Shown piece after piece: positions 9,058-42,355 of a DNA stretch of 64,000 nt. The stretch covers positions 62,001 through 126,000 of the forward strand of contig CAJQUW010016138.1 in assembly GCA_907163375.1 (NCBI GenBank). Direction: 5' to 3'. The stretch is from Prostheceraeus crozeri (taxonomy: Eukaryota > Platyhelminthes > Polycladida > Euryleptidae). Positions within the stretch are counted from its first letter, which is position 1. Each line of letters starts with the position of its first letter. The notes beneath the pieces were generated by a model. It was not told the origin of the DNA and made no database searches. It saw only the letters and a list, made by a program, of their open reading frames with translations. The position numbers and the translations under genes are program-made.

Positions 9058-9079
9058 CTACAATATCAAAAAGACTTAA

Positions 9080-16845: not shown

Positions 16846-17129
16846 CCCCCGCAACGTAAGTCTGATCACTTCATCGAAAGACGAGGTAAGCGACGGTCGT
16901 CGCTCTGAGCTCCCGATATCGAGGTTTCACATGACTCTATCTTTTGAAGTATGCAAGCTATCTTCTTACTTCAAAGTTTGTGTGATAGAGTTTGATAGTG
17001 TCTTTACCACTGATAAAAAATTTTAAAAGTAGTATGAGTAGTATAATGCCGAATTTTTTAAAATTCTTGATTTTTAGTTTTTTCAAAGTTTTAACATGTA
17101 GTCTGAAGTTTTCAAGTATGCTGAGTTCA

Positions 17130-17700: not shown

Positions 17701-17736
17701 AAAACTTATACAAATTTCATTATCTTACAGCTAATC

Positions 17737-20226: not shown

Positions 20227-20280
20227 GTTGACTGTGGATAATAACTTTGAAATTTTTCCTAATTCTTAAGTATAAACAAG

Positions 20281-20331
20281 CAACCAATCAGAATGAACAG
20301 CCAATGAATGATGACCATAAAAGGATATAAG
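20281..20331 (+). promoter_or_regulatory. CCAAT and TATA-like promoter of Polinton C polB
   Basis: CAACCAATCAG (20281) and GCCAATG (20300) precede CCATAAAAGGATATAAG (20315-20331), about 180 bases before the ATG at 20507. A TTTGAGGCGTACAAGTGAACTG-type motif is repeated downstream of it (about 20355-20450). Confidence 0.5.
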
Positions 20332-20506
20332 CAAAGTGACATTTCACTCTGTCTTTGAGACGTGTAAGTGAACTGTTGTCTAGTGAATTCTATTATTTGA
20401 GGCGTACAAGTGAACTGCTCTCTAGTGAATTCCAAATTTGAGGCGTATTATTTGAGTGAAGTCTCTATCTTGTTGAAGTATCAACCTTAAACATAATTTC
20501 CTTGAA

Positions 20507-23500
20507 ATGGTAAGTTGAAGATTTCCTCTCTCATCTCCCTCAAACGTGTGGCTAATAGCATCTTCCTCAATTTCAGGCATCTACTTCATCACCAAAGCCC
20601 TCCCTTCTCGAGGAAAGTTTAGAGCTGTTGAGTGAAGGTAGGTTGTAACAATACACTGAGACTTTGACAGAGATGATAGAATGATTTCTCTTTCAGGTGA
20701 TGTTAGTTCTAGCTCAGGACTCTCGCGACAAGGCAACGAGTGGGAATGTGCTGACTGCGGACATATTTTTACAAGGAAGCACAGTCTCCTTCGACACATC
20801 AAACAACGTGTGTGTCAACGCAAAGCGGCGTCAATCTCCGGAGGTGAAGTTGATTCTGACGATGACATCTCCTTTCCTTGTGATTTGTGCCCTCTTTCTT
20901 TCGATAGCCACTTTCAGCGATCTTCGCACAGACTTCAACACACGCATGCAAATGATCACTACACCAACGGTACCTCTACAATCTCCCTCATTAACGTTTC
21001 CCATAGTCATTTAGTACGCGACTACTGCATGGAGTCCAATACTCAAATAGTAGATTTTCCTGAGTGGCTCCTTCAAAATTCTAACATTATCGAAGCGCTC
21101 TTCAACAATTTAGACAATTTTAGAATGAAGGCGCTCATCTACCTCAAACTAAAATATATTAAAATAGATTTTCAAACGGGTCAAGTGACGGAGAGAATAC
21201 AGTTTCATGTTCCTTCCTCTCCCGCAACCGAAGTTGTAGACTGCGAGTCTTGGCTAAATTTCCATATTCAATGTTTAAAATCAAATGTAGATAAGTTCAA
21301 TCAGTGCGACAGCGCTCTCATTTGTGATGGCGTGGACTCAGCCATGTTCAAAATTTCCCTATTAGAAAGTCATGCAGCTCGAGGCACATTTAAACTACCA
21401 AAAACATTGTATAATAAGAAAGCTGTCATCAGTGTCGATTGTAAATCGCAGTGTTTCAAATATGCCGTCCTATCCATTCTCCACTATAATGATATCAACG
21501 CGCATCGAGATCGCACATATAGCTATAGACAGTGGGAGGATGTACTAGACTTTAAAGGTTGTTTTTGAAGGGGTTGAAGGGTGCCCGCTATAATTCACGT
21601 TCAACTTGTTATGAACGTGTAGTCAACCTCTTATTAGTAAAACAAGATGATAGCGAGGAATGGCACTACTGTGGTATTCCCAAAATCTGTCGCTTGTATA
21701 CACACTTGGGACACTCTAAAAGTGGTGAACATTTTGTATGCGACCGCTGCATCCGCTCCTTTTGGAGTAAACATAAATTTGAAACTCATTATGAATGGTG
21801 CAAGCGAGGTAAATTACAAATGGAACGCATGCCCAAAGATAAAATATTTTCACATAGGGATAATGGTGACGAATTAAGTCCCCTGCGTGTCATTTACGCA
21901 GACATCGAATGCTACATTGATGATATCATCCACAAGCCAGCAGCCATATCCTGCTATGAAGTATGGCATGACCACTTTAGGAATAGGCAAAAAAAAATGC
22001 ATACTTGGCAAGGTGAAGATTGCATTTCACAATTTCTAGACTTTCTCGATAAGGCTGCCAAATTTCAGCAATCATATGATTCCCAATTGCAGCATAAGTC
22101 ACTACATATGTCAGATGAAGACAAACAAAAATTTGAAAGTTGCACATCGTGCCCTAAATGTCCTAAAACGTTTGATGACGATAAAATGAAGAAAGTGCGT
22201 GATCATGATCACATCACTGGTAAATTTAGAAACGCACTCTGCTCCAAATGTAACTTTTCACTTAGGTTGAGACGTCGTGTACTACCCGTCATTTTTCATA
22301 ACTTTAAGGGCTATGACAGTCATATGCTCATAAAAGGAGGGTTGAGCCAGATGAAATCGTGGTAGTCTAATGTAATAGCGCAAACGAGAGAAAAATTCAT
22401 GGCAATGACAGCAAAAGTACCAGTAGATAAAACTAAAGAAAATAAGACAGTTTTCTTCGAAATAAAATTTTTAGATTCATTCCAATTCATGTCAGCGTCA
22501 CTAGCTTCCCTCGTTCGTAATCTCAAGTTTCTTCCCCATAGTAAAACTTTGAAGAAACACTATCCAAACTTAACGGATGAGATAATCACTCGCAAAGGAG
22601 TCTTTCCGTATGCGTATCTTAGCTCAATGTCTAAACTAAATGAAACAACCCTTCCTTACATTGACAAATTCCAAAACGATTTGACGGGTCAAGATTGTTC
22701 AGTAGAGGACTATGAACATGCTCAAGAGGAATGGATAAAATTTGATTGTAAAACGTTTGGCGATTATATGATCGCTTACTTAGAATTAGATGTCATTTTG
22801 CTGGCTGATGTCTTTCAGGAATTTCGACGAGTGGCATTAGAAGAAGACAAATTAGATCCTGTCCACTTTGTCAGTCTACCAGCCATGTCCTTTAAATCAG
22901 CCTTTAAAATGACTGGTGAGACCATTCATCTCTTACAAGACCCCAAGATGTATAACATATTTGAGCGTGGAATACGCGGTGGTCTCACATTTGTAAATAA
23001 ACATCATATAAAATCTGAAACAGTAGGTGATGATCATATCCACCTAAAGTACTATGACCAAAATAATTTATATGGCAGTTCACTGTCTAAACCACTACCT
23101 CATTCCGAGTTTAGTTGGTTAAAACAAGATGAGCTTGAGTATTACTCCAACCCTTCAAACATACTGAAGATTCCAGATGAAGGTGATTGGGGATATTATT
23201 TTGAAGTGGATTTGATTTATCCAAATAGTATCAGAAATAAAACTGCTGATTTCCCACTCGCACCTGAATCTGGTGAAGTGACTGAAGATATGTTTTCACC
23301 ATTCATGTCACAATTTCATGATAACTTAAGAGTGTGGACAGCCAAGGTATAAACCATGTCGCAAACTTTTACTCACCCAATATGATAAGAAAAATTATCT
23401 CGTGCACTTCTGCATACTAAAATTCTATTTGGAAATGGGCATGCTTCTAAAGTCAGTTCACCGCATCATCAAATTTAGTCAGAAAGCCTTCCTCAAACCT

Positions 23501-24412
23501 TACATAGATAGTAACAGTCAAAAACGTGCACTAGCCCAAAATAATTTTGAAAATGATTTTTATAAATATAAGAATAACAGTCTTTTCGGAAAGACGATGG
23601 AGGACGTTAGAAAACGTATGAGCTACAAACTGGTCATTGATGATCAAAAATATCACAAATTGACCTCATCACCTCTTTTCATTGATAGAGACATTATCGA
23701 TGAGGATCTTGTAGGTGCTAAAATGATAAAGTCAGAAGTTGAGTTGTGCAAACCCATCTATATTGGGCAAGCCGTTTTAGATTAATCCAAGCTTGAAATG
23801 TATCAACTCTTCTACAAAATATTAAAACCGTGCCCTTTTGTAAAAGAGGTTCGCTTGCTGGGTGGTGATACAGACAGTTATTACTCAGATACAGACAGAA
23901 TTACCACTCAAAAAGATTTAAATTTTAATGAAGTAGGTAAGTCATTAGAAAAATATTTCGACACATCTAACTACAATCCCGCTCATCCACTCTATTCCAT
24001 ACAGAATAAAGCCAAACTTGGTTGTTTTAAGGATGAAACAACAGGAAAGGAAATAGATGAAATGATTCTCCTCTGTCCTAAAATGTATTCCATGAAATTA
24101 AAAAAATGTGCAGATAGCATTAAGCGTGCTAAAGGTATATCAAAATCCATTGTTCACAAAATGAAACATCGGTCCTATGAGAAGGCCTATAAAAATAAAA
24201 CTATAACGTTTGTCAATATGACAATCTTAAAATCTCAAGTTCATACTGTGAAAACGCACACGTTCAAGAAACGAGCGCTTTCAGCATGGGCGGATAAGAG
24301 GTGTTGGATATGACATAACACATCTCTTCCACATGGACATCCTGACATAAACATACCTCCACCCAAAAGAATAAAACTAGCACTACCACATTCAGGAGAC
24401 GTCTTAGCATAA
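20507..24412 (+). pseudogene. polB: Protein-primed family B DNA polymerase (polB) of Polinton C, broken
   Basis: Exon 1 is only the ATG (20507-20509), exon 2 is 20577-20637 and exon 3 starts at 20697. Exon 3 encodes C2H2-like fingers (about 20735-20945), the conserved N-terminal domain (20970-21380), exo I (VIYADIECYID, near 21890), exo II (FHNFKGYDSHML), exo III (YLELDVILLADVF), palm A (DQNNLYGSSLS), palm B (NNSLFGK), palm C (GGDTDSY) and PKMYS. Breaks: a deletion of about 30 codons with a frame change near 21555, TAG at 22363-22365, a stop and frame change near 23350, TAA at 23783-23785 and TGA at 24311-24313. The motifs are intact, so the loss looks recent. An AATAAA follows near 24580. 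Confidence 0.9.
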
Positions 24413-24574
24413 TCAACTTTAACTCAGTATTTTGATGTTGCTTTTTGTAGATATACATGGTTGCTTTATGTGTTGCATGAGATTGTATTTCCTTGTGAAT
24501 AGTTCCCTACAGTCCCCTGTGTAAAGACTTCCCCGCTTGAAATGTAAAAAGCACATTTTTATCATGTATTTTTA

Positions 24575-24600
24575 TTTCAATAAAATTTTACAATGACTTC
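24575..24600. terminator. Shared polyadenylation region of convergent genes
   Basis: TTTTATTTCAATAAAATTTTA gives AATAAA on the plus strand (for polB) and TTTATT, that is AATAAA on the minus strand, for the gene ending at 24599. Confidence 0.6.
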
Positions 24601-26139
24601 ACTTTGCTTTCCGAAACACTAAAGTTATGAGGGATTTAGTATCTTTGACATGGATGCACTCATGTAGACCATTTGTAATTTTGATAGAAATAGAGGGTAT
24701 TGTTTGTTTGATAACAGGATGGTAGAAAATATGTTGAAACATCTTCTCGACTATTCCATATAAAGCATCCTTATCATGAATGAAATCACGTAAAATGTGT
24801 TCTTTTTCCTCGCCAACAGAAATAGGTAGAATCAAATCACTTTGAATGTAAAGGTGTTGGTCATTTTTATCAAGTGTCATTGGCGTTTCTATACCAATCG
24901 TATGCTCAGCAGTAAACATATTTTGTAGCATTGAAAAACCAGAGTCTTTTCAAATTTTTACTCAATTGACATTGAATGTCATCACCCAGTTTCAGAACAA
25001 CGCGTTGATTTTCAATTGAAAACGAAATGTGGTGTGTCTTTACATCATATTTACTTTTCATCACATGCTTCAACTTCTGTTGTAACTTACTTCATGAATG
25101 AAGCTTTCAACTGTATGATATAGACGCGGCATTATATTGATAGCAACTTTAGATTCTTGATAAGACTGGTAAATTTTCTTGATGCGATCACCATACATGT
25201 CCACCCACCATTCATCATTAACTGAATCAGCTTTAGTGTAATATTCATGAGAAGTATAAACCACACCGCTTCCAATAATAGGTGTATGATGTCTTACAAA
25301 ATGACGCAAGGTTGAAGAGAAATAAACTGTAAGTTTGTCATTATATTTCTGAATAACCAACTTATCTTTGTCCGCCATAATTTTCTCTCCATACTTCTTA
25401 CCCACAGTCTCATTCCATCGTTTTACTAACTCAATAAGTGATAAAGGTTGAACACCACGCTTTTTCAAAATGATGCGTTCTTCACATTCTACAACATCTT
25501 CATCAAATATTTTAAATTTATAATGAAATTTGTTGATTCGATTTGAATAAACTTTTTAACATTTGCAGTAGCAATTGACGTTAGATGTAGTCCATGGCCA
25601 AAACCGATATGTGGATAAAAATCATTATCCAACCTCAGTGTAAGACCTTTAGTAAAACAATGAAAGCGAAGGAACTGTCTCCCACTCCAGTGATAGATAG
25701 TAATTTCATAAACTTTCTGATCCTTATTCTTCATGATGGAAGTATTACTACTATTGAATGCCTTAATAATTTTCTCATCCCCAAATGGACCATAATAATC
25801 TGATTTTATCTGAATCCATTCATAGTTCCACTTTCCATCTGACGTTAAATTGTATGGGAACTGGAATGCATTATTCATTGTTATTCCATCATGGGTGCGA
25901 GGAGTTAATATCATTTCTTCCAAATCATTTACATTCTGAATATTGCTATCATAGCAAATGCTGGAAACACCTACTTCCCATTCACCTTCTAGATGTAGTG
26001 AGCGATTTAATTCTACTCGATAGTCTGATGGTTTATTATTAGGAAATTTATTCATAGAAGCGTTACTGGGTAAGTAAATTAGAACCGAATCTCTATTTTC
26101 ACTTTCCATACTAATCACATTGGAAAAATATATTAGCAT
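24599..26139 (-). pseudogene. Second copy of the probable structural protein, split by frameshifts
   Basis: Three pieces (25489-26139, 25070-25468, 24599-24931) plus an open stretch between the last two match successive parts of the intact gene at 26227-27546. The N-termini share a module: SNASMNKFPNN ... EGEWEVGV here, SNAATNRFGNN ... NGKWEVGV there. The middle pieces share the FVRHH/FLRHR and NIMPRLYHTVESFIHEV/VLMPRIITSVKLVIDYL regions. Frame changes lie near 25480, 25075 and 24935. It is a tandem duplicate, diverged in sequence, that has since decayed. The likely start is 26109 or 26139. Confidence 0.7.
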
Positions 26140-26226
26140 ACTTTTGCATTAACTCTTCATTCGGAAATGGAGTGTGATACTTGTCACAGCATCTTTATGA
26201 AAAGGAATCAACGCACCAGCATCGTC

Positions 26227-27546
26227 TTAAATTGCAATATCAATTTGTGGGATGTAGTTTGATTTCAGCTTTGTATAATGCACTTTCTTGAAAGTATGCT
26301 CAGATAAAATACTGCAGCTTTTTGGCTGGTATGGTATCATTGCTAGCAATGGAGCTTCAACATCTCCCACACGTACATCTTCACCAATATTGGAATATAT
26401 CTGAAAATAGTTAATACGACGCGATAGCGACATGTCTGCGCTAGCTTTGGTTACAGTACCACTTTTAAAGATATTTTGATCAAAACCCAAAATGTCCATT
26501 AGAGTTTTATCCATAATTAGTTCAATACCTTTTCCACTTATAGTGAGAGACAAAGCACCTTCTTTTTCAGAAAATGAAATATGTTGCTCATTAATCACTT
26601 CATTTAAATAATCTATAACCAATTTAACTGAAGTAATAATTCGAGGCATCAACACTATTGTTTCATGTAAGATGCCACCTAAAGGCTCTACACACTTTCT
26701 GTATAAAGATGCGGTCCTTTCTGTATCAAATTGATTTGACCTTTCACATGGTAAATGTTGCATATCAAAATTTCCATGAACAGCTGCAGAACGATGTCGT
26801 AAGAACTGATGAAAATCTTTTGAACAAACTAATACTAGATCATCATCATTTAATTTACTTATTGCAATATGATTAGATGATTTGATATAAGTCAATGTTG
26901 CCACTTGTTTACCATCAACTCGAAGGAGATAATTAAATTTCTTCAATAATGTTTCAGGAGTCATGTTTGTCTTTCTTGGCTTAATCACAATCTTCTTCAC
27001 CAACGTCTTCTCATTTTTTGGAATAAGATCTACATAATAAGCTTCCTCTCGATATATTAACTGTTTATGACCACTTGGGTGGTAATTAACGTTATAATTA
27101 TCATAGCTTGTTAAGGCGCTAGCGAGGTAACCTAAATCATTTCTTAAACTTGGACTTAAACCAACAATCCAATCTTTCTCAACTACATGATGTACATAAT
27201 TATGATCATCATTGTGCGGAGTAAATTGGACAATATGTTTACACGCTTTATTCAGGAAATCATAATCGAATTTGTGACGTGATAGAAGATCTTTCTTCGG
27301 CCATTGTGGAATGTATACTCGGCAGCCCTTTTCACATTGGTAAGCAGCTGTGCGTCTCATATTAATAATCATCACCTCATGATCAAAAGTATAGACATAG
27401 TTACTGTGAACAAGTTGAGTGACACCCACTTCCCACTTTCCATTTAACTGTTGTATATGATCAATGGGAGTAGAAAAGAGTGCGGCTCGATTATTACCAA
27501 ATCTATTTGTGGCCGCATTGCTAAGCAAAATATGATAAAGCGACAT
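26227..27546 (-). CDS. Probable minor capsid or other structural protein of Polinton C
   Basis: 439 residues, intact. It begins MSLYHILLSNAATNRFGNN and has an early GKWEVGVTQL motif. Proteins with this opening (short strand, S-N-A-x-x-x-x-F/Y-x-N-N, then W-E-V-G/A-L/V) recur in invertebrate Polintons, usually among the virion genes. I cannot say from sequence alone whether it is the penton-like minor capsid protein or a spike. A broken paralogue lies just downstream. The start is 35 bases from the divergent PC4-like gene start. Confidence 0.5.
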   Translation of the reverse strand: MSLYHILLSNAATNRFGNNRAALFSTPIDHIQQLNGKWEVGVTQLVHSNYVYTFDHEVMIINMRRTAAYQCEKGCRVYIPQWPKKDLLSRHKFDYDFLNKACKHIVQFTPHNDDHNYVHHVVEKDWIVGLSPSLRNDLGYLASALTSYDNYNVNYHPSGHKQLIYREEAYYVDLIPKNEKTLVKKIVIKPRKTNMTPETLLKKFNYLLRVDGKQVATLTYIKSSNHIAISKLNDDDLVLVCSKDFHQFLRHRSAAVHGNFDMQHLPCERSNQFDTERTASLYRKCVEPLGGILHETIVLMPRIITSVKLVIDYLNEVINEQHISFSEKEGALSLTISGKGIELIMDKTLMDILGFDQNIFKSGTVTKASADMSLSRRINYFQIYSNIGEDVRVGDVEAPLLAMIPYQPKSCSILSEHTFKKVHYTKLKSNYIPQIDIAI

Positions 27547-27581
27547 TTTTATATTGGTGATCTGCAGCTTTGCATAACATC

Positions 27582-27938
27582 ATGAAGACTTGGATTTTGG
27601 ACTCTCTACAATATATCAGAGTTGATCGTAATGGAAACGTGCATTTCAAAAATTCTCATGGTCATACATCAAGAGGTATTACATTAACATGGCGACAATT
27701 TGTCAACCTCAATGATATCATGAGGGATTTGGAATATTTTGAAACATTAAGATTCATATCCTTGGGTGATCAAGTTTGGCTTCAACGTTGCAACAATGAA
27801 ATTCAAATCTCCCATTCTCATTCCGCAAACTGTTTCTCATTTCGCAAATACAATTGGGAGAAGTATAGAAGATACATACATCGCTCCATCATGACATTTA
27901 TTCGTCGTGAGTTCATCACCCTACTATGCAAATCTTAA
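27582..27938 (+). CDS. PC4/Sub1-like tandem-repeat protein, Polinton C
   Basis: 118 residues. Unit 1: W-x-L-D-S-L-Q-Y-I-R-V-D, then GNVHFKNS, then RGITLTWRQFVNLNDIM. Unit 2: ISLGDQVWLQR, NEIQIS, then FSFRKYNWEKYRRYIHRS. The order L-G-x-x-x-Y-V-x-V, V-x-I/F, K/R-G-I-(S/T)-L-x-x-x-x-(W/F)-x-x-L is that of the PC4 fold, which binds single-stranded DNA and acts as a transcription coactivator. I infer two such units. It lies upstream of a decayed copy and the TBP-like gene, as the homologues do in A and B. The assignment rests on pattern, not on a search. Confidence 0.5.
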   Translation: MKTWILDSLQYIRVDRNGNVHFKNSHGHTSRGITLTWRQFVNLNDIMRDLEYFETLRFISLGDQVWLQRCNNEIQISHSHSANCFSFRKYNWEKYRRYIHRSIMTFIRREFITLLCKS

Positions 27939-27960
27939 TCAGACATGACCACCACGCACC

Positions 27961-28282
27961 ATGAGTTGGAAATTAGATTCCCTATAACGTATTGAAACGG
28001 ATCATGATCGAAACGTCTATTTCAAAGATTCAACTGGAAATGTGAGAAGAGAGTTTGCTTTATCTTATCGTCATTTTCAATCTCTACATCATATCATGAA
28101 GGATTTGAAATACTTCTATATGAAAAGACATTCACGTATTGGAAATCGCATCTGGTTGCGCGTCAACAAACGGCGAATTCAACTCTATCATTCCTAACTT
28201 CATACTAACTTCACATTTCATCAAGGTAGTTGGTAAAAGTATAAAAGGAAGGTACATCGCTCAATTTACTCATTTTTTCATC
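27961..28282 (+). pseudogene. Decayed second PC4-like gene, Polinton C
   Basis: It starts ATGAGTTGG and aligns with the gene just upstream: NVYFKDS, FALSYRHFQSLHHIMKDL, then IGNRIWLRV and RRIQLYHS. Three in-frame TAA codons interrupt it. The first stands where the intact copy has CAA (after D-S-L), a direct C-to-T example. The third stands after a Trp where homologues have Glu (W-E-K-Y). Its 3' part runs into the TBP-like gene in another frame, as the intact genes do in A and B, so this is probably the original partner of TBP and the upstream copy a duplicate. Confidence 0.6.
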
Positions 28283-28828
28283 ATGAAGCGTCATCGCTAC
28301 ACCATCGTCAACATTCTCCGTCGCTTCAGACTCTACACCAAAATCGATCTCACAACACTACACCAACACCTTCCAAACAGCAAGTATTACCCTGCTCGAC
28401 CTCAAATGTTAGTGGTGAAGATGAACAATTCACGGAATCTTCAACTCTTCCCAAATGGGACTGTACAGATTCTCGGCGCCCTTTCTCATTCATCGGCGCA
28501 GTCAATGCGCTTAGAGCTACAGAGACTACTACGTCGGATATGGAAGAGGGAGAGGTGTGTGATGTCGAATCTGACTGTGGACAATATGGTGATCTCTACT
28601 CAATTGAGTGAAAGTGTATCATTTTTGAAGATTCATACCAGCAGTTACAATTTGTGTTATGAACCCGAACTTTTTCCTGCAGCTCTCATTAGTTGTTGGT
28701 TACCTGTGCATGTTGCAATCTTTCATAATAGTAAAGTGATCATTACTGGACTAAAATCTCATGTACAAGCAAATGTGATCCTAGACTATCTCATCGAGTA
28801 TATACGTACCCAGCGGATTGTAAAATAA
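28283..28828 (+). CDS. TATA-binding protein (TBP)-like protein, Polinton C
   Basis: 181 residues from the ATG at 28283; an upstream in-frame extension exists but overlaps the decayed PC4-like gene. Two TBP repeats are clear. Repeat 1: VNILRRFRL, a YYPARPQMLVVKM strand, LQLFPNGTVQILGALS. Repeat 2: VDNMVISTQL, CYEPELFPAALISCWLP, HVAIFHNSKVIITG. The YEPELFP motif is identical to cellular TBP, and asparagines equal to the two central TATA-contacting ones are present (VNI, DNM). Three of four DNA-wedging Phe are kept. No N-terminal extension. A TATA-recognising initiation factor is the likely role. Confidence 0.85.
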   Translation: MKRHRYTIVNILRRFRLYTKIDLTTLHQHLPNSKYYPARPQMLVVKMNNSRNLQLFPNGTVQILGALSHSSAQSMRLELQRLLRRIWKRERCVMSNLTVDNMVISTQLSESVSFLKIHTSSYNLCYEPELFPAALISCWLPVHVAIFHNSKVIITGLKSHVQANVILDYLIEYIRTQRIVK

Positions 28829-28862
28829 AAAACAATTTTTCCAACATGATGTTTTTATTTCA
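28826..28862. terminator. Polyadenylation signals for the TBP-like and protease genes
   Basis: AAATAAAAAAC right after the TBP-like stop (plus strand), and TTTTTATTTC, that is AATAAA on the minus strand, at the protease end. Confidence 0.55.
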
Positions 28863-29316
28863 AATCATGATAGAACTTACAAATCATTTTTTCATTAGAG
28901 GATGGATTACATGAAAAGTTTTGAATAACAGATACAAATCGAGATACATGTAAACGTTTTAAGATGAAGTACAGTACAAAAGCACCACACGTTGATGAAA
29001 GTGGATGCTGTAGTATGCGTTCATTTCGCTGATATTGACGCGTATGTTTTCTCAACCACTCCTGTGTTGGTATATTTAGAGGTTGAGCAAGAGAGTCAAA
29101 TAGTTCACCACGTCGGTCTTCTCCAATAAAGATCGCTTTCCAATGCTCACCGCCTAAATTCTGCGAATGAGTGTTTAGCACAATAAAGATGGGATAGTGA
29201 TTTACTGCAGGTGGTAAGGTATTGAGCGAATAGACATTATCGAAAGCTTTCAACGTCGCTTCATCTGCATTACGCTGTACTTTAGTTTTAATACCGTCAG
29301 CAGTCAACCAACTCAT
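28855..29316 (-). CDS. Adenain-like cysteine protease (Ulp1/C48 fold)
   Basis: 153 residues, intact. The catalytic set is visible in order: His in GEHWKAIFIG, Asp in GELFDSL, Gln before the active site (ILQHPLSS) and Cys in STCGAFVLYFIL. This is the maturation protease of Polintons and adenoviruses, expected to cleave capsid and core precursors. Its ATG overlaps the capsid gene's stop by one base (TAATG). Confidence 0.85.
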   Translation of the reverse strand: MSWLTADGIKTKVQRNADEATLKAFDNVYSLNTLPPAVNHYPIFIVLNTHSQNLGGEHWKAIFIGEDRRGELFDSLAQPLNIPTQEWLRKHTRQYQRNERILQHPLSSTCGAFVLYFILKRLHVSRFVSVIQNFSCNPSSNEKMICKFYHDLK

Positions 29317-30593
29317 TAACGATTATACTGAAGAATCACGTCACGATACTTTGTAATTTCAATGTTTGAATCGAAGACTGCATAAATTAATACATTGATT
29401 GTCTCAGGTAGTGTTCTTTTGAACGTCAAATCCAAACGAATATTATGAGGCACGTTCGCTTGACGATAGGGTGCACTAATATCGCTGTCAGCAGTCAAAT
29501 CAAATGCATAAATAGTATATCCACTCTTAAACTCTTTCATAGTGAGTCCGTTGGTGTCATCCGTATTGTAAAAGCCAAAGACATCCATAAATTCAACATA
29601 ACTGCGCATAAATTTATCCGAAGCAAAATCTGGTTTGTAGGGTGGACCAGGATGACTCACACCATTTACACGTAAAGCAATTTCACTTAACTGATTGTGT
29701 TTAAAATTGAAAGGATTCTTCTTTATATTACCATTAAATGCATCATTTTCAACCATTGCCACCATGAGGAGCTTCGGTGCTTCCGATGGAAAGAGGCCAT
29801 CTTTCATGAAACTTTTTTGATCTTTCGGAATTGTAAAGGTGAGAAGCTTTGTATGCTGAACGGGGTAAATGGCATTTTGGCGGTTAAGACCTTCAGCATG
29901 TCCTCTAATGACACTTGGATTCGGTACTACTCGACGAATGTAAAGTGCAATATCTTCCACATGAATTCTAAAATTGTCAACTTTACCAAATGCATTCAGC
30001 GCAAATTCAGGCTTATTCAATGTCAGCTTGAGTCGCATGCTGGTATTACAGAGTAAAAACTTTGACTGTCTAAAGAAGTCTAAATTCAGCGGACCATATA
30101 GCTGACATACTTCACTATCTTTAATCATAGCAGATCGCTTTACAGAGCCACTGTTTGTTTCAGCATCAAATTTTCCTGCTTCATCTCTGTACCATCCCAT
30201 GGCTTCCATATGACTTTTTTGTGCTGCTGGATGAAACTGTGATACATGATTGAAATATGATTTATAGCGATAATCGCTTTGACCACCTTCCACCTGCTGC
30301 TCTCCAATCGTTAGAGAAACATCGCGAAGCAATGTAGTCAATGGTAAATTGTTCAGTCCAACTTTATGTGTATCGTCAATAGCAGTTCCATCTGCTTGCT
30401 GAATTCTAAACCTCAAATCAACCATCGCATAACTCAAATCTATGTAGTCATCACTACCACCAGGAATAACAAATTCAATGGGGCCAGCATTCTCAGCTGT
30501 TCGAGGATGATAATCTACAATACTTGAACTAAGAATATCTGTCTGTATGGCCTGTTGATCAAACAAACAAAAGCCGGAAGTTTTACACTCCAT
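29316..30593 (-). CDS. Capsid protein, probably the major (double jelly-roll) protein of Polinton C
   Basis: 425 residues, intact. The sequence resembles the protein family often annotated as F54H12.2-like in invertebrate Polintons: LSYAMVDLRFRIQ, then NNLPLTTLLRDVSLTIGEQQV, a Y-R-Y-K-S-Y-F-N segment, GWYRDEAG, LYGPLNLDFFRQSKFLL and LRLKLTLNKPEFAL. Length and position beside the protease fit the major capsid gene; a minor-capsid role cannot be excluded. It starts three bases after the basic core-like gene's final stop. Confidence 0.6.
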   Translation of the reverse strand: MECKTSGFCLFDQQAIQTDILSSSIVDYHPRTAENAGPIEFVIPGGSDDYIDLSYAMVDLRFRIQQADGTAIDDTHKVGLNNLPLTTLLRDVSLTIGEQQVEGGQSDYRYKSYFNHVSQFHPAAQKSHMEAMGWYRDEAGKFDAETNSGSVKRSAMIKDSEVCQLYGPLNLDFFRQSKFLLCNTSMRLKLTLNKPEFALNAFGKVDNFRIHVEDIALYIRRVVPNPSVIRGHAEGLNRQNAIYPVQHTKLLTFTIPKDQKSFMKDGLFPSEAPKLLMVAMVENDAFNGNIKKNPFNFKHNQLSEIALRVNGVSHPGPPYKPDFASDKFMRSYVEFMDVFGFYNTDDTNGLTMKEFKSGYTIYAFDLTADSDISAPYRQANVPHNIRLDLTFKRTLPETINVLIYAVFDSNIEITKYRDVILQYNR

Positions 30594-30595
30594 GA

Positions 30596-31051
30596 TTAGA
30601 AGTTATAGCAGCGTCGTCGTTTAGCGCCTGATGAATGATTAGAGCCTCTACGACGTTTGCGTGAATGCCTTTTGACTGAAGATCGCACCTTACCAGCTCC
30701 GCGATGTTTCCTTCATCCTTTATTCATTCGCTTAGGCGATTTCTTTCCTTGAGTAACACCATCAAAGGTCTGCTTCAATGTTTTTAAACCACGCTCCTTC
30801 CCACGATTCAACAAGCTGCTCTTAAAACTTCTACCTCTGGAAAGATCACTAGCAACATCACCAGCAAAGCCAACGGCATTACTTAAAACATTTCGTTTTA
30901 AAGATATACCGACATTGGATATGAGAGGTGCTACAACAGATTTCAGTGCACCAAGTATGCTACCTCCACGTTGGCGGCGAGCGCCGATGTAAATTTGTCC
31001 TCCACCACTTACATAGGAGGGTCGTGAATAAAATGAGGCAGTTGGATTCAT
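30596..31051 (-). pseudogene. Basic core-like virion protein with an in-frame TGA
   Basis: 112 codons from ATG 31051, with Gly-rich repeats (SYVSGGGQIYIG, RQRGGSILG) that look like adenain cleavage sites. It ends at TGA (30713-30715). The same frame then continues for 38 codons, very rich in Arg/Lys (RKHRGAGKV, RHSRKRRRG, AKRRRCYNF), to TAA at 30596. The layout resembles adenovirus pVI or pX-type precursors. The TGA is most simply a CGA (Arg) changed by C-to-T, but the shorter protein might also be the true product. Confidence 0.5.
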
Positions 31052-31092
31052 AGCTCAAACCCTAAACATTGTTAGTTGCAACTTTGCATGAA

Positions 31093-32181
31093 TCACTGTC
31101 GATCACTTAGATGAAAGATGTCGGCACGACGCATCCAAGAGTTCATACTTGAAGGATAACCAGCCCATTTAACAAGACACCATTCTTCACCTTGCCGTTT
31201 TTTACATCGAATGATTTTCTCTACCAAATATGTTTCACTTTCAGTGACTACCTCAATCTCATCGCGGTAAAAGCTACCCTCAACTTCTTCATTATTGTAA
31301 TCTTTCAACTTGTAGGTGGTGGGAGAGTCTTTTTGATCAATCCTTGATACTGTAAATACCTCCTCTGTCCAATTCGGAAGGTACCCTTTGGCAAAACCAC
31401 TTTTCACTTTTGAGATACGAACTTTATCGCCAATGTTCACATCACTTTTCACATGAGTGCGTTTACGCTGGAATGATTCGCGCACTTTATCTACATTGTC
31501 AGCATTTACATCTACTGGTCTGAGTCCAATAGAACGATGAACAGAGTGATTGCATGCATGGAGTGTATCTTGTAGAACCTTTGTCCAGTTTTGTGTCAAG
31601 TTGGCAGTAAAATGTCTCCACAAGCGATTTTTTAGTGTGCGATTAAAACGTTCAACGAGTGCAGCTTTATAAGCACTCTTTACACTAAACAACTCAATGT
31701 CATGCCTCTCAAATAATCTTCTCACATGTTGATTTTCAAACTCTTTTCCTTGATCACTCTGAATTCTTTTTGGAATGCGGCCTTCTCGAAAAATTGTTTG
31801 GAATGCTTTTGCTACTCGTTTACCTTCTTTAGTTTTTGAAGGTTGAGCCCACGCATAACGCGAGAAAATATCAATGACAGTTAAAATAAAATTATTTCCT
31901 GAGTTATGTTTTGAAATGGAGTCAACATCACACAAATCTGCTTGCCACTGTTCATCAATGTCATGAACAATATAATGGCGGGTGCGGTACTTCTTTTTCG
32001 CTTGTTTGTGGAGTGTATATGTAGCCTGACCCTTTAACCATCGTTTAACCTGTGATTGTGGAAGGCCACCTGCTTTTGATAATTTCTTGATAGATGCAAA
32101 TCCTGCTGGATGTTTTACATCATAGTAGATTGACTTCAAACGTTCAGTCGATGACGACTGACTCTTTTTCCTCCTTCTCAT
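31093..32181 (-). CDS. Retrovirus-like integrase with chromodomain, Polinton C
   Basis: About 362 residues from ATG 32181; an upstream in-frame stretch to 32307 overlaps the Cys-rich gene and is probably not used. N-terminal part: YYDVKHPAGFASIKKL ... VKRWLKGQATYTLHK. DDE core: D in QWQADLCDVD, D in RIQSDQGKEF, E in LVERFNRTLKNRLW. C-terminal chromodomain: YLVEKIIRC ... WCLVKWAGYPSSMNSW. It would join element ends to target DNA and make 6-bp duplications. It is the only integrase found in the three Polintons here. Confidence 0.9.
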   Translation of the reverse strand: MRRRKKSQSSSTERLKSIYYDVKHPAGFASIKKLSKAGGLPQSQVKRWLKGQATYTLHKQAKKKYRTRHYIVHDIDEQWQADLCDVDSISKHNSGNNFILTVIDIFSRYAWAQPSKTKEGKRVAKAFQTIFREGRIPKRIQSDQGKEFENQHVRRLFERHDIELFSVKSAYKAALVERFNRTLKNRLWRHFTANLTQNWTKVLQDTLHACNHSVHRSIGLRPVDVNADNVDKVRESFQRKRTHVKSDVNIGDKVRISKVKSGFAKGYLPNWTEEVFTVSRIDQKDSPTTYKLKDYNNEEVEGSFYRDEIEVVTESETYLVEKIIRCKKRQGEEWCLVKWAGYPSSMNSWMRRADIFHLSDRQ

Positions 32182-32359
32182 CTGTTTTCTTTCTTGCCTT
32201 TCTACATTTACAACAACTACAGCATTTAGCTTTAGCGGTTTTGCGATCATGTTCACATTGCTTAGGGGTCTCATTGTGAGAGCTGGCGCAGCAAGTGCAA
32301 GTGACAACTACACTCACCTCCGGTGGCTCATTACATGGCAAGCAACACATCTGCTTCAT
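32144..32359 (-). CDS. Possible small cysteine-rich protein overlapping the integrase start
   Basis: 71 residues with over a dozen cysteines (MCCLPC, TCTCC, KCCSCCKCRK) and a Lys/Glu-rich end. It starts just before integrase and overlaps it by 38 bases in another frame if integrase starts at 32181. The Cys spacing could bind zinc. No homologue is seen in A or B. It could be a chance frame, but the composition is unusual for one. Confidence 0.35.
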   Translation of the reverse strand: MKQMCCLPCNEPPEVSVVVTCTCCASSHNETPKQCEHDRKTAKAKCCSCCKCRKARKKTDEKEEKESVVID

Positions 32360-32360
32360 A

Positions 32361-33053
32361 TTAATAGTCTGAGAACATGTATTTCTGGGGAGGAGCTGTT
32401 TTACGTTTTCCTTTTACTAGTTTTAGTGGTGGCGTAGATCTACGTCGAGTTCTTCCTCTTGTTTGCTTAGTGAGTGTAGGAGGGGATGTAGCAGGTGACG
32501 TCTTAAACCAATTTGTTGGCATTTTCATCGTCTGAAGCATTGGAGCAGTAGCCACTGTTGAATCAAGTTCTTTCAATGTCTCATTATTCAAAGCAAATTT
32601 TGGCACAGTATCCTTTTTCAATAGTTTAAGAAAGTATGATCAACCAGGTGGAACATAGCCCTGACGGCGCTTTCTACGTGTCGCATACTGAATCAAGTCT
32701 TCATAACGTGAAGTATCAATCATTTTATTTTCATCTGTAATGATTTCTCCTCTATCATTTATATTGAGGTGGGGTTCAATACTGTTGAAAAGAGATATGG
32801 CATGTGCACGGGATGCTAAAGGTGTAGCAGTCGACACAGAGTCACGCATCTTATTCTTCAAATTTTTCAATTGTTCAACAGTTTACGATTGTAATAATAC
32901 AGCACGATGTGGATCTTTGATGTGAACATTTTGCTGATGATCTAATTCTTTCCTAAACATTTGATTTGCAAGAGGTTGCTTTACTTGTTGTATAGCAGTC
33001 AATTGTACATATTCATCCTGAGGAATAACAATCATGCGAGAATAAGAACTCAT
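32361..33053 (-). pseudogene. Conserved Polinton virion-region protein with two in-frame stops
   Basis: ATG 33053 overlaps the ATPase stop (ATGA). The frame runs MSSYSRMIVIPQDEYVQL ... PHRAVLLQS, then TAA (32883-32885), then TVEQLKNLKNKMRD ... YVPPG, then TGA (32640-32642), and on to 32361 with a Lys/Arg-rich C-terminus (RGRTRRRSTPP, KGKRKTAPP). No frame changes, only the two stops. Proteins opening with this M-I-V-I-P motif occur next to ATPase genes in invertebrate Polintons. Function unknown; a DNA-binding or scaffold role would suit the basic tail. Confidence 0.5.
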
Positions 33054-33667
33054 AGTTTGTAGATAATCATGGGAGTTTTCAAAATATCACTTCGAAATCT
33101 AAATTCTTCCGGACACTCTTGCGTAAAGTCAATGAATAAGTAACCGTGTGGTTTTTCAGTAGCTGCTTGAAGAATTTCAATTAAGGCTTTTGATCCTGTT
33201 GGTGCAACTTGTCGCGCTAAAATTTCAAATTGACTTTTATCTCGCGGATTCTTGAAAATGGCATAATAGTGTGTATTCAGGTTTCGTGTACGAGCTTCTT
33301 TTCCATCAGGAAACAAATTTTGTGTGATATAGATGATAAAGCATCTTTTATGATGTGCTGCGCGAGTGAACATATCTGTAACATCTTTTGAATTCTTACT
33401 TTCTTTTAATAGATCATCCAATACAACAACATCATTAGACTGAAGTTTATCCACTGGAATAATTCCTTCATGTCGAATAAAGTTGCGACTTTGTAATTCC
33501 TGAAACTGCGACGGTTGATAAATACCATAACACCAAATAACTCGATTGATAGGTTCCTTAAACAACTCCCTTCTTTTATCCAATAAATTCAGCGTGAAAA
33601 CAATTTTACCTGCATGAGATGGACCTGATACAGTCAGAACTTTATCGGATTGAAGTCTGAAATCCAT
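33050..33667 (-). CDS. FtsK/HerA-type genome packaging ATPase, Polinton C
   Basis: 205 residues from ATG 33667. The Walker A region reads VSGPSHAGKIVF, where the family normally has G-K-T/S: the hydroxyl residue is replaced by Ile (ATT; ACT would be one C-to-T away). Walker B: NDVVVLDDLL. A typical YITQNLFPDGKEARTRNLNTH segment follows, then FKNPRD. It should pump DNA into capsids; the T-to-I change probably impairs ATP hydrolysis. Confidence 0.85.
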   Translation of the reverse strand: MDFRLQSDKVLTVSGPSHAGKIVFTLNLLDKRRELFKEPINRVIWCYGIYQPSQFQELQSRNFIRHEGIIPVDKLQSNDVVVLDDLLKESKNSKDVTDMFTRAAHHKRCFIIYITQNLFPDGKEARTRNLNTHYYAIFKNPRDKSQFEILARQVAPTGSKALIEILQAATEKPHGYLFIDFTQECPEEFRFRSDILKTPMIIYKL

Positions 33668-33698
33668 TTTAATACTTTGCGATTCAACATTTGCATAA

Positions 33699-33986
33699 TT
33701 AACGCTTAGAGCCAAAGATACTTCCCAATACGTTGCCCACGGCAGGAGCTAGTATCGGTAGTAACGCTGAAAGGAAACCGCCCTTTTGTGTTAGAGTTTC
33801 TCTCTTTCTTTGAAGGGTGACTTTAGGATTAGAGATGAAACGCAATTTTGTAGCATATCGCTTAAGTAACTTTCGTTGTTTTGGTGCTAACTTCTTCGTC
33901 CTCAACTTTCTCACATGATAAATAATTTCACGAATGAATTTATCGTTAGCATGTCGTATAGCATTGTATCGCTGATTTGCTTTCAT
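33699..33986 (-). CDS. Small basic protein with hydrophobic Gly/Leu/Ala tail
   Basis: 95 residues. A Lys/Arg-rich first two thirds is followed by TQKGGFLSALLPILAPAVG and GSIFGSKR, a hydrophobic or amphipathic helix. Short proteins with a K-G-G-F-L motif of this kind lie beside ATPase genes in Polintons. A virion core or membrane-active (pVI-like) role is possible. It ends 32 bases before the ATPase ATG. Confidence 0.5.
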   Translation of the reverse strand: MKANQRYNAIRHANDKFIREIIYHVRKLRTKKLAPKQRKLLKRYATKLRFISNPKVTLQRKRETLTQKGGFLSALLPILAPAVGNVLGSIFGSKR

Positions 33987-34115
33987 TCGTTGAAGAGCTT
34001 AAATGGCTGAAGAAAACTTTGAAGACTTTTGACTTTTACGTTTCGTCATTTTACGTTTCGCCATTTTCCGTGTTAGTTATTGCTAAAACCTGTCTTTACC
34101 ACATTTGCATAGGTA

Positions 34116-34439
34116 CTAACTATTGCGGCATAAGTGACACTCGAAATGAGCAATATCACAGTGGTTACATTTGCAAAGTTGAATGCAATTACGCATGAAA
34201 CAGCGTTGACAAAAAGCATGCTTACATCTCTTGAAGATGCGCTTTTCATTTCCATCCTTTCGCTTACATGCATCACAACACATAGTTTCACCGTTACTGA
34301 TGTCTATAGCAAGTCTTTTTGAAGATATGAATTTGCTAGCCTTTTCTAAATAATAGACGCATGTACAGAAGGAATATACTTCGAGAGTGAGCAGGCATAG
34401 CTCGAAAACCAGTTGTGCTACAATCAAGTACCACTGCAT
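34116..34439 (-). CDS. RING-like zinc protein with N-terminal hydrophobic segment, Polinton C
   Basis: About 107 residues from ATG 34439. A hydrophobic stretch (YLIVAQLVFELCLLTL) may be a signal or membrane anchor. Then C-C-x2-C, C-x-H-x2-C-x2-C (RCKHAFCQRC) and C-x-C-x2-C ... C-x2-C, a RING-type pattern. The start lies two bases after the stop of the PolB-domain-like gene. A membrane-bound ubiquitin ligase acting on host proteins is one possibility; unproven. Confidence 0.5.
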   Translation of the reverse strand: MQWYLIVAQLVFELCLLTLEVYSFCTCVYYLEKASKFISSKRLAIDISNGETMCCDACKRKDGNEKRIFKRCKHAFCQRCFMRNCIQLCKCNHCDIAHFECHLCRNS

Positions 34440-34441
34440 TT

Positions 34442-34852
34442 TCAATTTTTCTTTATAGAAAGTTGAATGTGAATATCTGAAATCGCTTCAATCACTAGAC
34501 TGCTACCATGATGGTTAAATGCGTTAAGACGTTCAGCAATGTTTATCATATGTCTTTTAAAAAATTCTTCGGGGCGATCTACAACTTCCATTGAATAAGA
34601 AGCAAAATGGAAAGAGCGAGTTTCCACCTCTTCCTTTCCAAAATGACTAAACTTAATTTTCGCAACTAATCGCGCCATGACAATGCTATCAGCGAATGTA
34701 TTCATTAACTCTAGAAATAGAGTGCTAGCATCATCAACCACTGCTTCGATGTCGGTCTCATCTTTATGAAAATTTATCACATAATCTTGAACATCTCGTT
34801 TTAAACTTTGCCTATGAAAATGTAATGTTCCGCAGTCGTTTGAGAAAGACAT
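34442..34852 (-). CDS. Small protein resembling the PolB N-terminal domain, Polinton C
   Basis: 136 residues, intact. It matches family members in A and B: CGTLHFHRQSLKRDVQDYVINF (pattern T-L-x-F-H-R-Q-S-L), MARLVAKIKFSHF, SFHFASYSMEVV, FKRHMINIAERLNAF and HIQLSI. Member 1 in B reads LLFHRQSLRGVIRDYIISF, FHFASYSAETI, QRHMAKIASRLDSF and HIQLNVL at the same places. It sits directly before the RING-like gene. Confidence 0.6.
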   Translation of the reverse strand: MSFSNDCGTLHFHRQSLKRDVQDYVINFHKDETDIEAVVDDASTLFLELMNTFADSIVMARLVAKIKFSHFGKEEVETRSFHFASYSMEVVDRPEEFFKRHMINIAERLNAFNHHGSSLVIEAISDIHIQLSIKKN

Positions 34853-34900
34853 GATCGCCCTTTATCTAACCCATCTATTGCATGAAAACAACTCTTCTCA

Positions 34901-35090
34901 TAGTAACATTTATTGAATAACTGTAACAAGCATGCATTATAAATCAATGGTTTGAAACAGATAAAATAGACACAGCTGGTAACTATCATACAGCGAGCAA
35001 TGATAACCATACAGGACTTTGGCAGTGTTGAGGTAAGGAGGAAAGAAGCATTAAGTTTACCCTCACAATCCATAAAAATGATGATAGAAG
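34901..35090 (-). pseudogene. Possible remnant of the exonuclease-like gene, Polinton C
   Basis: After an acceptor-like TTTTAG the sequence reads IIFMDCEG, matching VVIFIDSEG at the start of the A and B exonuclease-like exons. The rest of the enzyme is not recognisable; a run of unrelated hydrophobic codons follows. Position (after the RING-like gene) agrees with A and B. Confidence 0.35.
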
Positions 35091-35125
35091 CCTAAAACGG
35101 ACATTTACACATCTAAGGAAACGTT

Positions 35126-35326
35126 CTATAACATATCACAAAATGAAGAATTACATCGATGCTTTTCACGAAAAAATACACAAATGATATGATGGCAACG
35201 AAGAAGTAAAATGTATCTAATAAGACCACGTCTACGACACTCAAAGCAGATAAGCGAATTGTCATAGGGTAGAGTTAGGAAAGGACTAGTAATTCTCCTT
35301 CTTTGATTTGCGTTTTGAGGCAGCAT
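35126..35326 (-). CDS. Short RING-like zinc protein, Polinton C
   Basis: 66 residues from ATG 35326. Homologous to the A and B proteins: SLICFECRRRGLIRYI, then RCHHIICVFF. The second C-x2-C pair has become C-V-F-F, so one zinc ligand is lost or shifted. Its start overlaps the basic-tailed gene upstream. Confidence 0.45.
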   Translation of the reverse strand: MLPQNANQRRRITSPFLTLPYDNSLICFECRRRGLIRYILLLRCHHIICVFFREKHRCNSSFCDML

Positions 35327-36051
35327 TCTTCTCCGACTTGCGCTTCGTACCACTGCTGTTAAAGATTTGATCAATTATGTCATCTACGTTGGGTTGTTTT
35401 GGAATATATAGGATGGATTCCATATGCATGGAGAGAGAGGCTATTTTATTATCCTTGTGCCGACCATAATCTAGCCCATTCACTTTGAAAAGGATATCCC
35501 AAGTACCTTCTCCGAGCTCGTCGCATGTGATGGATGTTGAATGATCTCCCTCTTTCTTATAGTAAGTACACCAATGTGATACCGGTAGGCAAATTTGATT
35601 ACCATCCCAAATCTTTCTATAGGGAGTATCCTTGTCATCTCTAGCCTTCCACTCTTGAGCAAGAGGAGTAGGAATGTCCATATTTAATGTCACGTACTCC
35701 TCAATAATATCAAGTTGGCGGCGAATGTACGGACTCACGGGGATCAGTATGTAGTCCCCATACTGATTGCGCATTATCTTGACATCCGTGGAAGGGAGCA
35801 TTCCCGTTTGCAGTACTACGCTATGATCGTCATAACGCAAGACTTGTTTAAATTTACGCTGTAGCGGTGTAGGATTATGTACCTTGGTTGTTTCTTCCAC
35901 TGGCCTCAGTTGTAGATGATCTGATTGTAGCGAACCCTGTAACGTCTGACCGCCATTTTGTCCTACTAGTGCAGCAGATGCCTGAAAATGAAAAAGATTG
36001 TATTAAGTTTACGTTCAAGGGAGGAGAGGGAGGGAAGTAGCGACTTACCAT
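35286..36051 (-). CDS. Conserved Polinton protein with basic C-terminal tail, Polinton C (ATG-only first exon)
   Basis: Exon 1 is the ATG alone (36049-36051, then GTAAGT); exon 2 is 35286-35981 after TTTTCATTTTCAG. The joined frame is 232 residues. It aligns with the A gene 9231-9917: HNPTPLQRKFKQVLRYDD, PVSPYIRRQLDIIEEYV, YRKIWDGNQICLPVS, and a Lys/Arg/Ser tail (KRKSEKNAASKRKSKK). Function unknown; nuclear and nucleic-acid-binding by composition. Confidence 0.6.
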
Positions 36052-36143
36052 TTTAGTTGGATAATAGAATAGAGAGAGAGAGAAAATGTGCGTCCGTCAC
36101 TCGTGCGATTTAACTATGGAATGATTCTCACCGTGGAAGGCTC

Positions 36144-36157
36144 GCTATTTATATAGA
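36144..36157 (-). promoter_or_regulatory. TATA box of the basic-tailed gene, Polinton C
   Basis: TCTATATAAATAGC on the minus strand, about 95 bases before the ATG exon; two ATCCAATGAG-type CCAAT motifs lie beyond it. Confidence 0.65.
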
Positions 36158-36189
36158 AATGCTTGATTCTCATTGGATGATGATCCTCA

Positions 36190-37557
36190 TTGGACAATAA
36201 CATCAAGCTGATTCCAAATCTGGCCTCCGTTTACCAATCCGAGCCTTCGTTCGCCCGCTGGAGCTGTTTCTTGGGAAATTCTAACTCTGTCGTTTTTCGC
36301 CAATCTCCCAAATCTTAAATGGCGTCTCACATCCAAACGAAGACAGATATGAACAAGCCGTTTCTTTCAGTGAATTTGTCTCACTCTTAGCTTTCAAACG
36401 AGCTATTGCACGACTTTCTACAATCTCTAGAACCACAGTTGGAAGATCGCTGCCGAGGGGGGGGGTCGGTAAAATTTGATGAAACAAACTTTGGTCAGGG
36501 TCCCAGGTCGAAATTCGACACTTTGGAAAAATTTTCAAAATTTTGTCCATACTAAGTGGCTCTGACACTTAGGATTTTTTCGTCAAATCCGAGGTCTGAC
36601 CTAAAATCTTGTAACAGCTCTAACTTTTGAACGGCTGATCCGATTGACTCACAACAAAAATGTCATTTGGCAGTTTTTTCTCCTCTTTCAAATGAGTATC
36701 TATAAGACAAAATCCATCCACTAGAACCAAAATTAGAAGATCGCTGCCGAGGGGGGGTCGGTGAAATTTGATGAAACAAACTTTGGTCAGGGTCCCAGGT
36801 CGAAATTCGACACTTTGGAAAAATTTTTTTCCCATACAAAGTCACTCTGACACTTAGGATTTTTTCAGGTGAGGTCCGACGTGAAATCTTGAAATGGCTC
36901 TAACTTTTGAACGGCTGAACCGATTGAGATGGGACCACCGCCATTCTCTTTCTCTCACTCTCAGCTTTCCAGTGATGTAAAACACGACCTAGTCCGACCA
37001 CGGCAAGCCACCTCTCCCGAGGGGGGAGGTCGAAACATGAAAGTCGCGAAATGTGATGAAACAAACTTTGGTCAGGGTCCCAGTCGACAGGGTCGGACCA
37101 CGTCGGCCGGCCTAGGCTGACGAGGGGGGGTCGGTGAAATCTGATGAAACAAACTTTGGTCAGGGTCCCAGGTCGAAATTCGACACTTTGGAAAATTTTT
37201 TTTCCCATACAAAGTCACTCTGACACTTAGGATTTTTTCAGGTGAGGTCCGACGTGAAATCTTGAAATGGCTCTAACTTTTGAACGGCTGAACCGATTGA
37301 GATGGGACCACCGCCATTCTCTTTCTCTCACTCTCAGCTTTCCAGTGATGTAAAACACGACCTAGTCCGACCACGGCAAGCCACCTCTCCCGAGGGGGGA
37401 GGTCGAAACATGAAAGTCGCGAAATGTGATGAAACAAACTTTGGTCAGGGTCCCAGGTCGACAGGGTCGGACCACGTCGGCCGGCCTAGGCTGACGAGGG
37501 GGGGAGGTCGACGGCGGCCATCTTGCGCGGTCCAGAGGTGTAGAAACACTTACTACT
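36190..37557 (-). repeat. Right terminal inverted repeat of Polinton C
   Basis: The inverse of 15466-16555 over its outer 1.1 kb. It contains two copies of a roughly 370-base block (near 36830-37200 and 37195-37560), each with ACTTTGGTCAGGGTCCCAGG and GAACGGCTGAACCGATTGAG. The inner edge (36190-36450) matches the subterminal repeat of Polintons A and B. Confidence 0.8.
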
Positions 37558-41370: not shown

Positions 41371-41406
41371 ATTGATGCTATGTCTCCGAAGTGAAAGGAA
41401 GAAAGT

Positions 41407-42342: not shown

Positions 42343-42355
42343 ATCATGTGAACGC

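Follow-up and report, generated by a model that had tools for sequence, protein, structure and literature searches.

Elements in the window

The window, a 64,000-nucleotide stretch of the Prostheceraeus crozeri genome, contains three elements, A, B and C, each with a gene that we assign to the TATA-binding protein (TBP) family (Table 1). Element C, the central one, is a Polinton. The main pieces of its inverted arms are 98–99% complementary, and the 6-mers that flank it, GTTTGC and TTTTGC, are alike at five of six positions. It carries the polB, retroviral-type integrase and capsid genes that define a Polinton, with polB being broken and the capsid match lying below the cut-off. Because its polB is broken, this copy of the element is at least partly dead. 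In the first polB frame, where an adintovirus PolB would carry an OTU-like domain at its N terminus, Pfam detects C2H2 fingers and no OTU domain, as far as the broken polB can be read. No RNA polymerase or TFIIB domain is present in the 13 larger frames of element C given to Pfam.

Elements A and B are inverted copies, with high identity, of one family that is distinct from that of C. Element B, which is complete from end to end, and the portion of A within the window both contain polB and TBP, but searches for capsid, protease, ATPase and integrase gave no match to the proteins of C at E 1e-3 (best 0.058), and a capsid profile found nothing on either element. A and B differ from Polinton/Maverick elements in lacking detectable capsid and integrase genes, and are called Polinton-related here, not full Polintons.

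Further features were observed in the window. In element B, TBP and polB point towards each other, and the stretch between them holds repeats with TTTATTTTATACTT (46534-46950). A family of small proteins occurs in several copies per element (41391-41828, 43920-44351, 52634-53086, 34442-34852 and the first polB frame, 20681-21568), and the stretch 52673-53047 from this family weakly matches a part of the N-terminal polB frame (E 2e-4). A long open frame of a retrotransposon, with reverse transcriptase, RNase H and integrase domains, is located at 62227-63927 on the reverse strand.

Table 1. Positions of the elements, their TBP genes and associated features within the window.
Feature	Position	Strand	Remarks
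Element A	1..12100	.	Left end outside window, right edge approximate; inverted copy of B family
TBP of element A (P0002)	6606..7139	-	177 codons, 177 aa; Pfam TBP 77.5 bits
Element C, a Polinton	15466..37557	.	Ends AGTAGT...ACTACT; arms in pieces, ~15466-16545 and 36457-37557
Element C polB	20681..24313	+	Split over five open frames; DNA_pol_B_2 E 2e-12 on 22399-23352
Element C 439-aa protein	26227..27546	-	No fold assigned; capsid-side gene by position
o122, small gene upstream of TBP	27582..27938	+	Low-confidence fold
Second, broken o122 copy	~27964-28299	+	Directly precedes TBP in element C
TATAAAAGG, candidate TATA box	28240..28248	+	43 nt before TBP ATG; within 3' part of o122-like copy
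TBP of element C (P0001)	28283..28828	+	Open frame of 181 codons and stop, 181 aa; Pfam TBP 74.1 bits
Element C protease candidate	28855..29316	-	Pfam Peptidase_C48 at E 0.0022, under the cut-off
Element C major capsid protein (MCP) candidate	29316..30593	-	DJR-like E 0.029, below cut-off; 259 homologues
Element C integrase	31093..32307	-	rve E 1.4e-10, Chromo (chromodomain) E 1.3e-6
Element C packaging ATPase candidate	33050..33715	-	Walker-like motifs by eye; without relevant Pfam match
Element B	40525..55700	.	Inverted ends (left begins AGTAGTGATC, right is CTACT), limits approximate; carries polB and TBP
TBP of element B (in P0003)	45701..46240	+	Start by homology to A; Pfam TBP 71.3 bits
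Open +2 frame over TBP in C, A and B	28283-28608; 7139-6817; 45701-46038	+; -; +	Approximate

A TATA-binding protein gene in each element

A preliminary description of this DNA had reported TBP frames in all three elements. Those of C and A are confirmed as open frames. In element B the frame holds and its start does not: the start proposed at 45707 is no start codon, and the ATG homologous to that of A lies at 45701, with a further in-frame ATG upstream, at 45659, as an alternative start. None of the TBP frames read contains an intron. As also described, the TBP frame of element C is open while polB of the same element is broken, the latter being split over five open frames.

A profile search and a structure prediction had been proposed as checks, and both point to TBP. 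Pfam TBP (PF00352) matches each of the three proteins in two stretches, in line with the two TBP-type repeats noted before, and scores them at 71.3–77.5 bits (Table 1) against a curated cut-off of 22.9, which excludes a chance resemblance. Sequence matches in the PDB further back this identity. AlphaFold gives a confident model with a two-lobed saddle fold, and the structure match to this model is the TBP saddle. By profile, sequence and predicted fold, the gene product is a TBP.

In cellular TBP, the wedging phenylalanines and the central asparagines serve the binding and bending of TATA DNA. Three of the four wedges (Phe116, Phe190 and Phe207 in yeast numbering) are kept in A, B and C, as had been observed, and position 99 is Pro. 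The central Asn of both repeats, previously attributed to C only, is found in all three proteins. The YEPELFP motif is exact in C, as first seen, and reads YETELFP in A and B.

The gene also belongs to the elements by its position. In C it lies inside the inverted ends among capsid-type genes, between the capsid block and the 439-aa gene, and its neighbors recur at 17 of 24 other places in the genome. The placement of TBP between capsid and polB blocks, as originally proposed, applies to the C type and not to A and B, where there is no capsid match.

Copies in the genome and relatives elsewhere

In the host assembly (2.05 Gb), where a TBP-profile search scored 150 of 10,984 candidates, we find at least 150 matches. 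Two cellular genes account for four of these, as exons of an ordinary TBP with introns and of a gene resembling TRF2/TBPL1. The true copy number is higher, because the three TBPs of the window are absent from those 150. In the TRF2/TBPL1-like exon G000:C3829:151570-151938 (L002), Trp, His and Tyr replace wedge phenylalanines.

Of the remaining 146 places, we read 24 with 3–7 kb of surrounding sequence; they were picked for spread of frame length and for score and do not form a census; since they were chosen through TBP, its presence there is no evidence in itself. At 17 of the 24, the protease and MCP candidates are on one side of TBP and the 439-aa gene is on the other. At one of the 17 (L015), the block of the 439-aa gene is inverted and further away, and another gene of this block adjoins TBP. 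These capsid-type places fall into three lineages, in which the identity of TBP to that of C is 82–97%, 42–43% and 40%. At the remaining 7 of the 24, polB is on one side of TBP, with no capsid gene in the stretch read. TBP recurs as a gene in this group of Polintons.

Outside this genome, 57 relatives (of 87 candidates) were found with one sequence and 400 (of 1779 candidates; best 120 listed) with an alignment. Among the matches listed (57 and the best 120 of 400 for TBP, the best 120 of 259 for the capsid protein), five TBP and five capsid homologues have longest contigs of equal size (7106, 9996, 10272, 5387 and 5810), which hints at TBP and capsid genes on common contigs in other samples. 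Scans of viral contigs with TBP, the capsid protein and their alignments, and of genome contigs with the capsid alignment, gave no confirmed homologous locus. PHROGs returned nothing for the TBP of C and one family of unknown function for that of A (E 0.0012).

Conservation of the predicted DNA-facing and TFIIB-facing surfaces

We compared 135 rows, comprising the three TBPs of the window, the 57 relatives found with one sequence and 75 more from the best 120 of 400, with residues numbered as in yeast TBP by offset from PDB chains. Positions 186, 188 and 189 are taken as the contacts to TFIIB, and positions for TFIIA contact were assigned likewise. Asn159, Phe116, Phe207, Pro191 and Glu188 are kept in all 135 rows, and Phe190, Val161 and Thr215 in 134, the exception for Val161 being element B. 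Glu186 is present in 133 rows, Leu189 in 127, and Asn69 in all 115 rows that have the position (20 gaps).

Other positions carry a different residue. Ala101 is replaced by Met, Val122 by Gln, Ile194 by Leu, Val203 by His and Leu205 by Ala, Thr or Ser in 135 of 135 rows, Leu114 by Gln in 131 and Thr124 by Leu in 118. Among rows with the respective position, Val71 is mostly Met (98/124) and Phe99 is Pro in 129/132, leaving three of the four wedges that mark a TBP. Positions 194, 203 and 205 are presumably those of the classic yeast altered-specificity mutant.

A helix-2 subset, taken as the presumed TFIIA/NC2 side, shows less conservation than the average column (96 of 20,000 random sets as low; 15 of 20,000 after thinning). 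The three TFIIB columns have a top-residue fraction of 0.975, reached by 126 of 20,000 random sets (thinned: 186 of 20,000). For the 16 DNA-contact columns, taken from Table 1 of PMC12529657, the mean top-residue fraction is 0.952 against 0.604 for all columns. None of 20,000 random sets was as high, and these columns remain at the top after thinning to 30 sequences of less than 60% identity. The alignment thus shows the predicted DNA-facing and TFIIB-facing positions to be the most conserved of the TBP.

A conserved DNA face is expected in any TBP; the telling point of the alignment is that its residues in the N-terminal lobe are constant yet non-cellular. The TBP of element C equals the human TBP chain at two of eight DNA contacts in the N-terminal lobe and at six of eight in the C-terminal lobe. 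The earlier view that the gene is kept in the elements stands, but mere retention does not describe it, as the DNA-reading surface has been replaced and is nearly fixed. The TFIIB glutamates carry the numbers E184 and E188 in PMC12529657.

Selection and origin

The genome copies were selected by a high TBP-profile score, which favors intact, conserved ones. For these, the 13 copies of the C type, of which 11 lack stops and one is L026, give TBP a mean dN/dS of 0.32. The value is 0.28 when the remaining 12 are compared with L026, and 0.39 among six A/B copies (four without stops). These values show purifying selection on the TBP copies. The corresponding C-type means are 0.23 for the protease, 0.24 for a 216-aa gene, 0.30 for the integrase, 0.38 for o122, 0.40 for MCP and 0.44 for the 439-aa gene. 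Against L026, TBP is less constrained than the protease (0.28 vs 0.16), and the 439-aa gene reaches 0.33. TBP is therefore constrained like its neighbors, not more.

A tree was built from 37 of the 135 rows together with five cellular TBPs and no other viral TBP. In it, a 100/100 branch separates the family, metagenomic relatives included, from the five cellular proteins. This branch is drawn at 3.64 + 2.45 changes per column; that of two archaeal rows in the same tree measures 1.46. Judged from these sequences, TBP was captured long ago or its gene is fast-evolving. The A/B TBP nests among relatives that include P0011, whose longest contig has the same size as that of a capsid homologue. Such nesting fits a loss of the capsid block in A and B.

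Upstream sequence and an overlapping frame

Across 27 places, made up of 24 genomic ones and the three of the window, a canonical TATAAA stands no more than 50 nt upstream of the TBP start codon in 24; L014, L015 and element B are without it. Early transcription of the gene by host TBP would agree with this, a weak indication because the same bases encode part of the upstream frame and most of the places are close copies. The one clear TATA box, of canonical type, stands before TBP itself. The conservation of TATAAAAGG is not independent, since it also codes for a part of the o122-like frame. Inspection by eye and a simple pattern revealed no motif common to the element genes, either within 110 nt ahead of 21 start positions in element C or within 90 nt ahead of nine genes at as many as seven loci.

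As a promoter motif, ATGCAAAG, which precedes some genes, is not enriched (3 found vs 3.4 expected). For o122, suspected by eye to be a PC4-like coactivator, Pfam and the PDB gave nothing convincing, and the structure predicted with three sequences as input is of low quality (pLDDT 40.4).

In three lineages, the +2 frame is open over the first 303–336 nt of TBP and continues the upstream o122-like frame, the upstream part of which is broken in element C. When synonymous TBP codons were reshuffled, a +2 frame as open arose in 0–2 of 1000 trials for 10 of the 11 copies tested, which are related to one another. In the eleventh, L023, 51 nt are open in this frame, read from a wrong start codon. 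The synonymous rate in the overlap relative to the rest is 0.75 in 11 ungapped C-type copies, which is not significant (701 of 5000 permutations as low). From their reading frames, TBP and the o122-like frame look like an overprinted gene pair.

A probable promoter-recognition factor

To our knowledge, transcription of Polintons has been little studied. We consider it probable that the Polinton-borne TBP is the element's own promoter-recognition factor, the reading that best suits a constant non-cellular DNA face, a kept TFIIB loop and 13 frames free of TFIIB and polymerase domains. The protein would enter the minor groove with its three Phe wedges, with the C-terminal lobe reading one half-site much like cellular TBP (six of eight contacts) and the N-terminal lobe reading the other half-site differently (two of eight). 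The kept YEPELFP loop may hand the promoter to host TFIIB, and host RNA polymerase II would then transcribe the element genes. Since even elements in which no capsid gene was detected retain TBP, its role is probably in the expression of early or replication genes, and not only of late capsid genes.

A more specific proposal, possible although somewhat doubtful, is that of a fixed promoter code of the elements' own. The N-terminal lobe would read another half-site while the other face plugs into host TFIIB, free of control of the TFIIA/NC2 type; capsid-bearing and capsid-less elements would employ the same kind of factor, its gene being overprinted by a neighboring frame.

A variant of the promoter-factor explanation, whose confidence overlaps with it, sees an extra TBP of ordinary specificity for canonical TATA boxes. 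The TATAAA close to the TBP start at 24 of the 27 places and the largely unchanged contacts of the C-terminal lobe agree with it, but it is unlikely, as Pro99, Met101, Gln114, Gln122, Leu124, His203 and Ala205 prevail at DNA-facing positions and the conservation of TATAAAAGG, doubling as o122-like coding sequence, is not independent. The protein could instead be aimed at the host as a decoy that occupies host TFIIB or promoters and dampens the transcription of the host or of rival elements. Conserved TFIIB-facing residues next to a varying helix subset on the presumed TFIIA/NC2 side would suit such a role, and a TFIIB-binding TBP that reads other DNA could titrate TFIIB. However, the 16 DNA contacts are nearly fixed, many at new residues that a pure decoy would not need, and the three wedges and both central asparagines are kept, making the decoy quite unlikely.

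The TBP fold might also mark or bend the origin or the terminal repeats for protein-primed replication and have no part in transcription. The proximity of TBP to polB, and the retention of polB, TBP and small genes in A and B without detectable capsid genes, speak for this role; it would leave the kept TFIIB loop (Glu186 in 133/135 rows, Glu188 in 135/135) unexplained, and we regard it as improbable. Hardly credible, finally, is the idea that an exon of host TBP or TRF2 was captured recently and incidentally and is functionless in the element. The genome does contain a TBP and a TRF2/TBPL1-like gene of the host, but their identities to the element TBP are only 23% and 21%, the frames read are without intron, and the 100/100 branch sets the family apart from five cellular TBPs. 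A dN/dS of about 0.3 and the same neighbors in several lineages, unless the lineages are artefacts, also argue against it.

As a promoter-recognition factor, a TBP recurrent in elements of 15–22 kb would give Polintons a named transcription factor and a testable promoter code. The changed DNA-reading surface, combined with the usual residues for docking to the host, suggests that Polintons may follow their own promoter code, and the element TBP would represent a natural case of altered specificity in a TBP whose contact residues for TFIIB are retained.

Comparison with known systems

We know of no description of TBP as a recognized Polinton gene. As far as the open-access literature was searched by terms, TBP in Polintons is unreported. 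TATA and TBP are absent from the main text of the Polinton and adintovirus papers looked up (including PMC8097293 and PMC11071296), and no TBP is found in PMC12220804. Element C has AGTAGT ends, polB, a chromodomain integrase and capsid-type genes in common with Polintons/Mavericks and adintoviruses. PMC8097293 reports the AGTAGT end motif for vertebrate Mavericks, and PMC11071296 defines the adintovirus integrase by a C-terminal chromodomain, which is also present in element C (Table 1).

The TBP of element C is 21–28% identical to five cellular TBPs. Element TBPs differ from these in Pro for Phe99, in Gln114 and Gln122, Leu124, His203 and Ala, Thr or Ser at 205, and in being intronless, mobile and almost without an N-terminal extension. 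The TBP-related paralogues of the TRF2/TBPL1 type keep Glu186 and Glu188, as does the element TBP; the host TRF2-like gene has lost the Phe at 116, 190 and 207 that the element family keeps.

Among viruses, a TBP gene occurs in 59% of mirusvirus genomes according to PMC10132985, and a Cymbomonas TBP belongs to mirusviruses or mirusvirus-like elements. TBP genes are also known in Megavirus and in viruses of Yellowstone Lake and of Chrysochromulina parva. In Megavirus they are accompanied by genes for RNA polymerase and TFIIB, and in three of the Yellowstone Lake viruses by one for TFIIB. TBPs of mirusviruses and large viruses are among the BFVD fold matches to the element TBP model, with TM scores of 0.4–0.7. 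Mirusviruses and large DNA viruses have large genomes; the elements described here, which are much smaller than the large viruses with a reported TBP, extend the range of the gene to their size.

The best-known analogue is ORF24 of KSHV which, with its homologues, is a virus-encoded TBP-like protein that acts with host RNA polymerase II (PMC12529657). According to the same source, ORF24 has polar for hydrophobic residues at 114 and 122, as in the element TBP, keeps all four Phe, lacks the glutamates that contact TFIIB and includes large domains in addition to the TBP-like part. The element TBP, which is recognized by sequence, has kept these glutamates (133 and 135 of 135 rows), has lost one Phe and comprises little beyond the TBP core. 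By analogy, the two proteins would represent opposite compromises with respect to the TFIIB glutamates.
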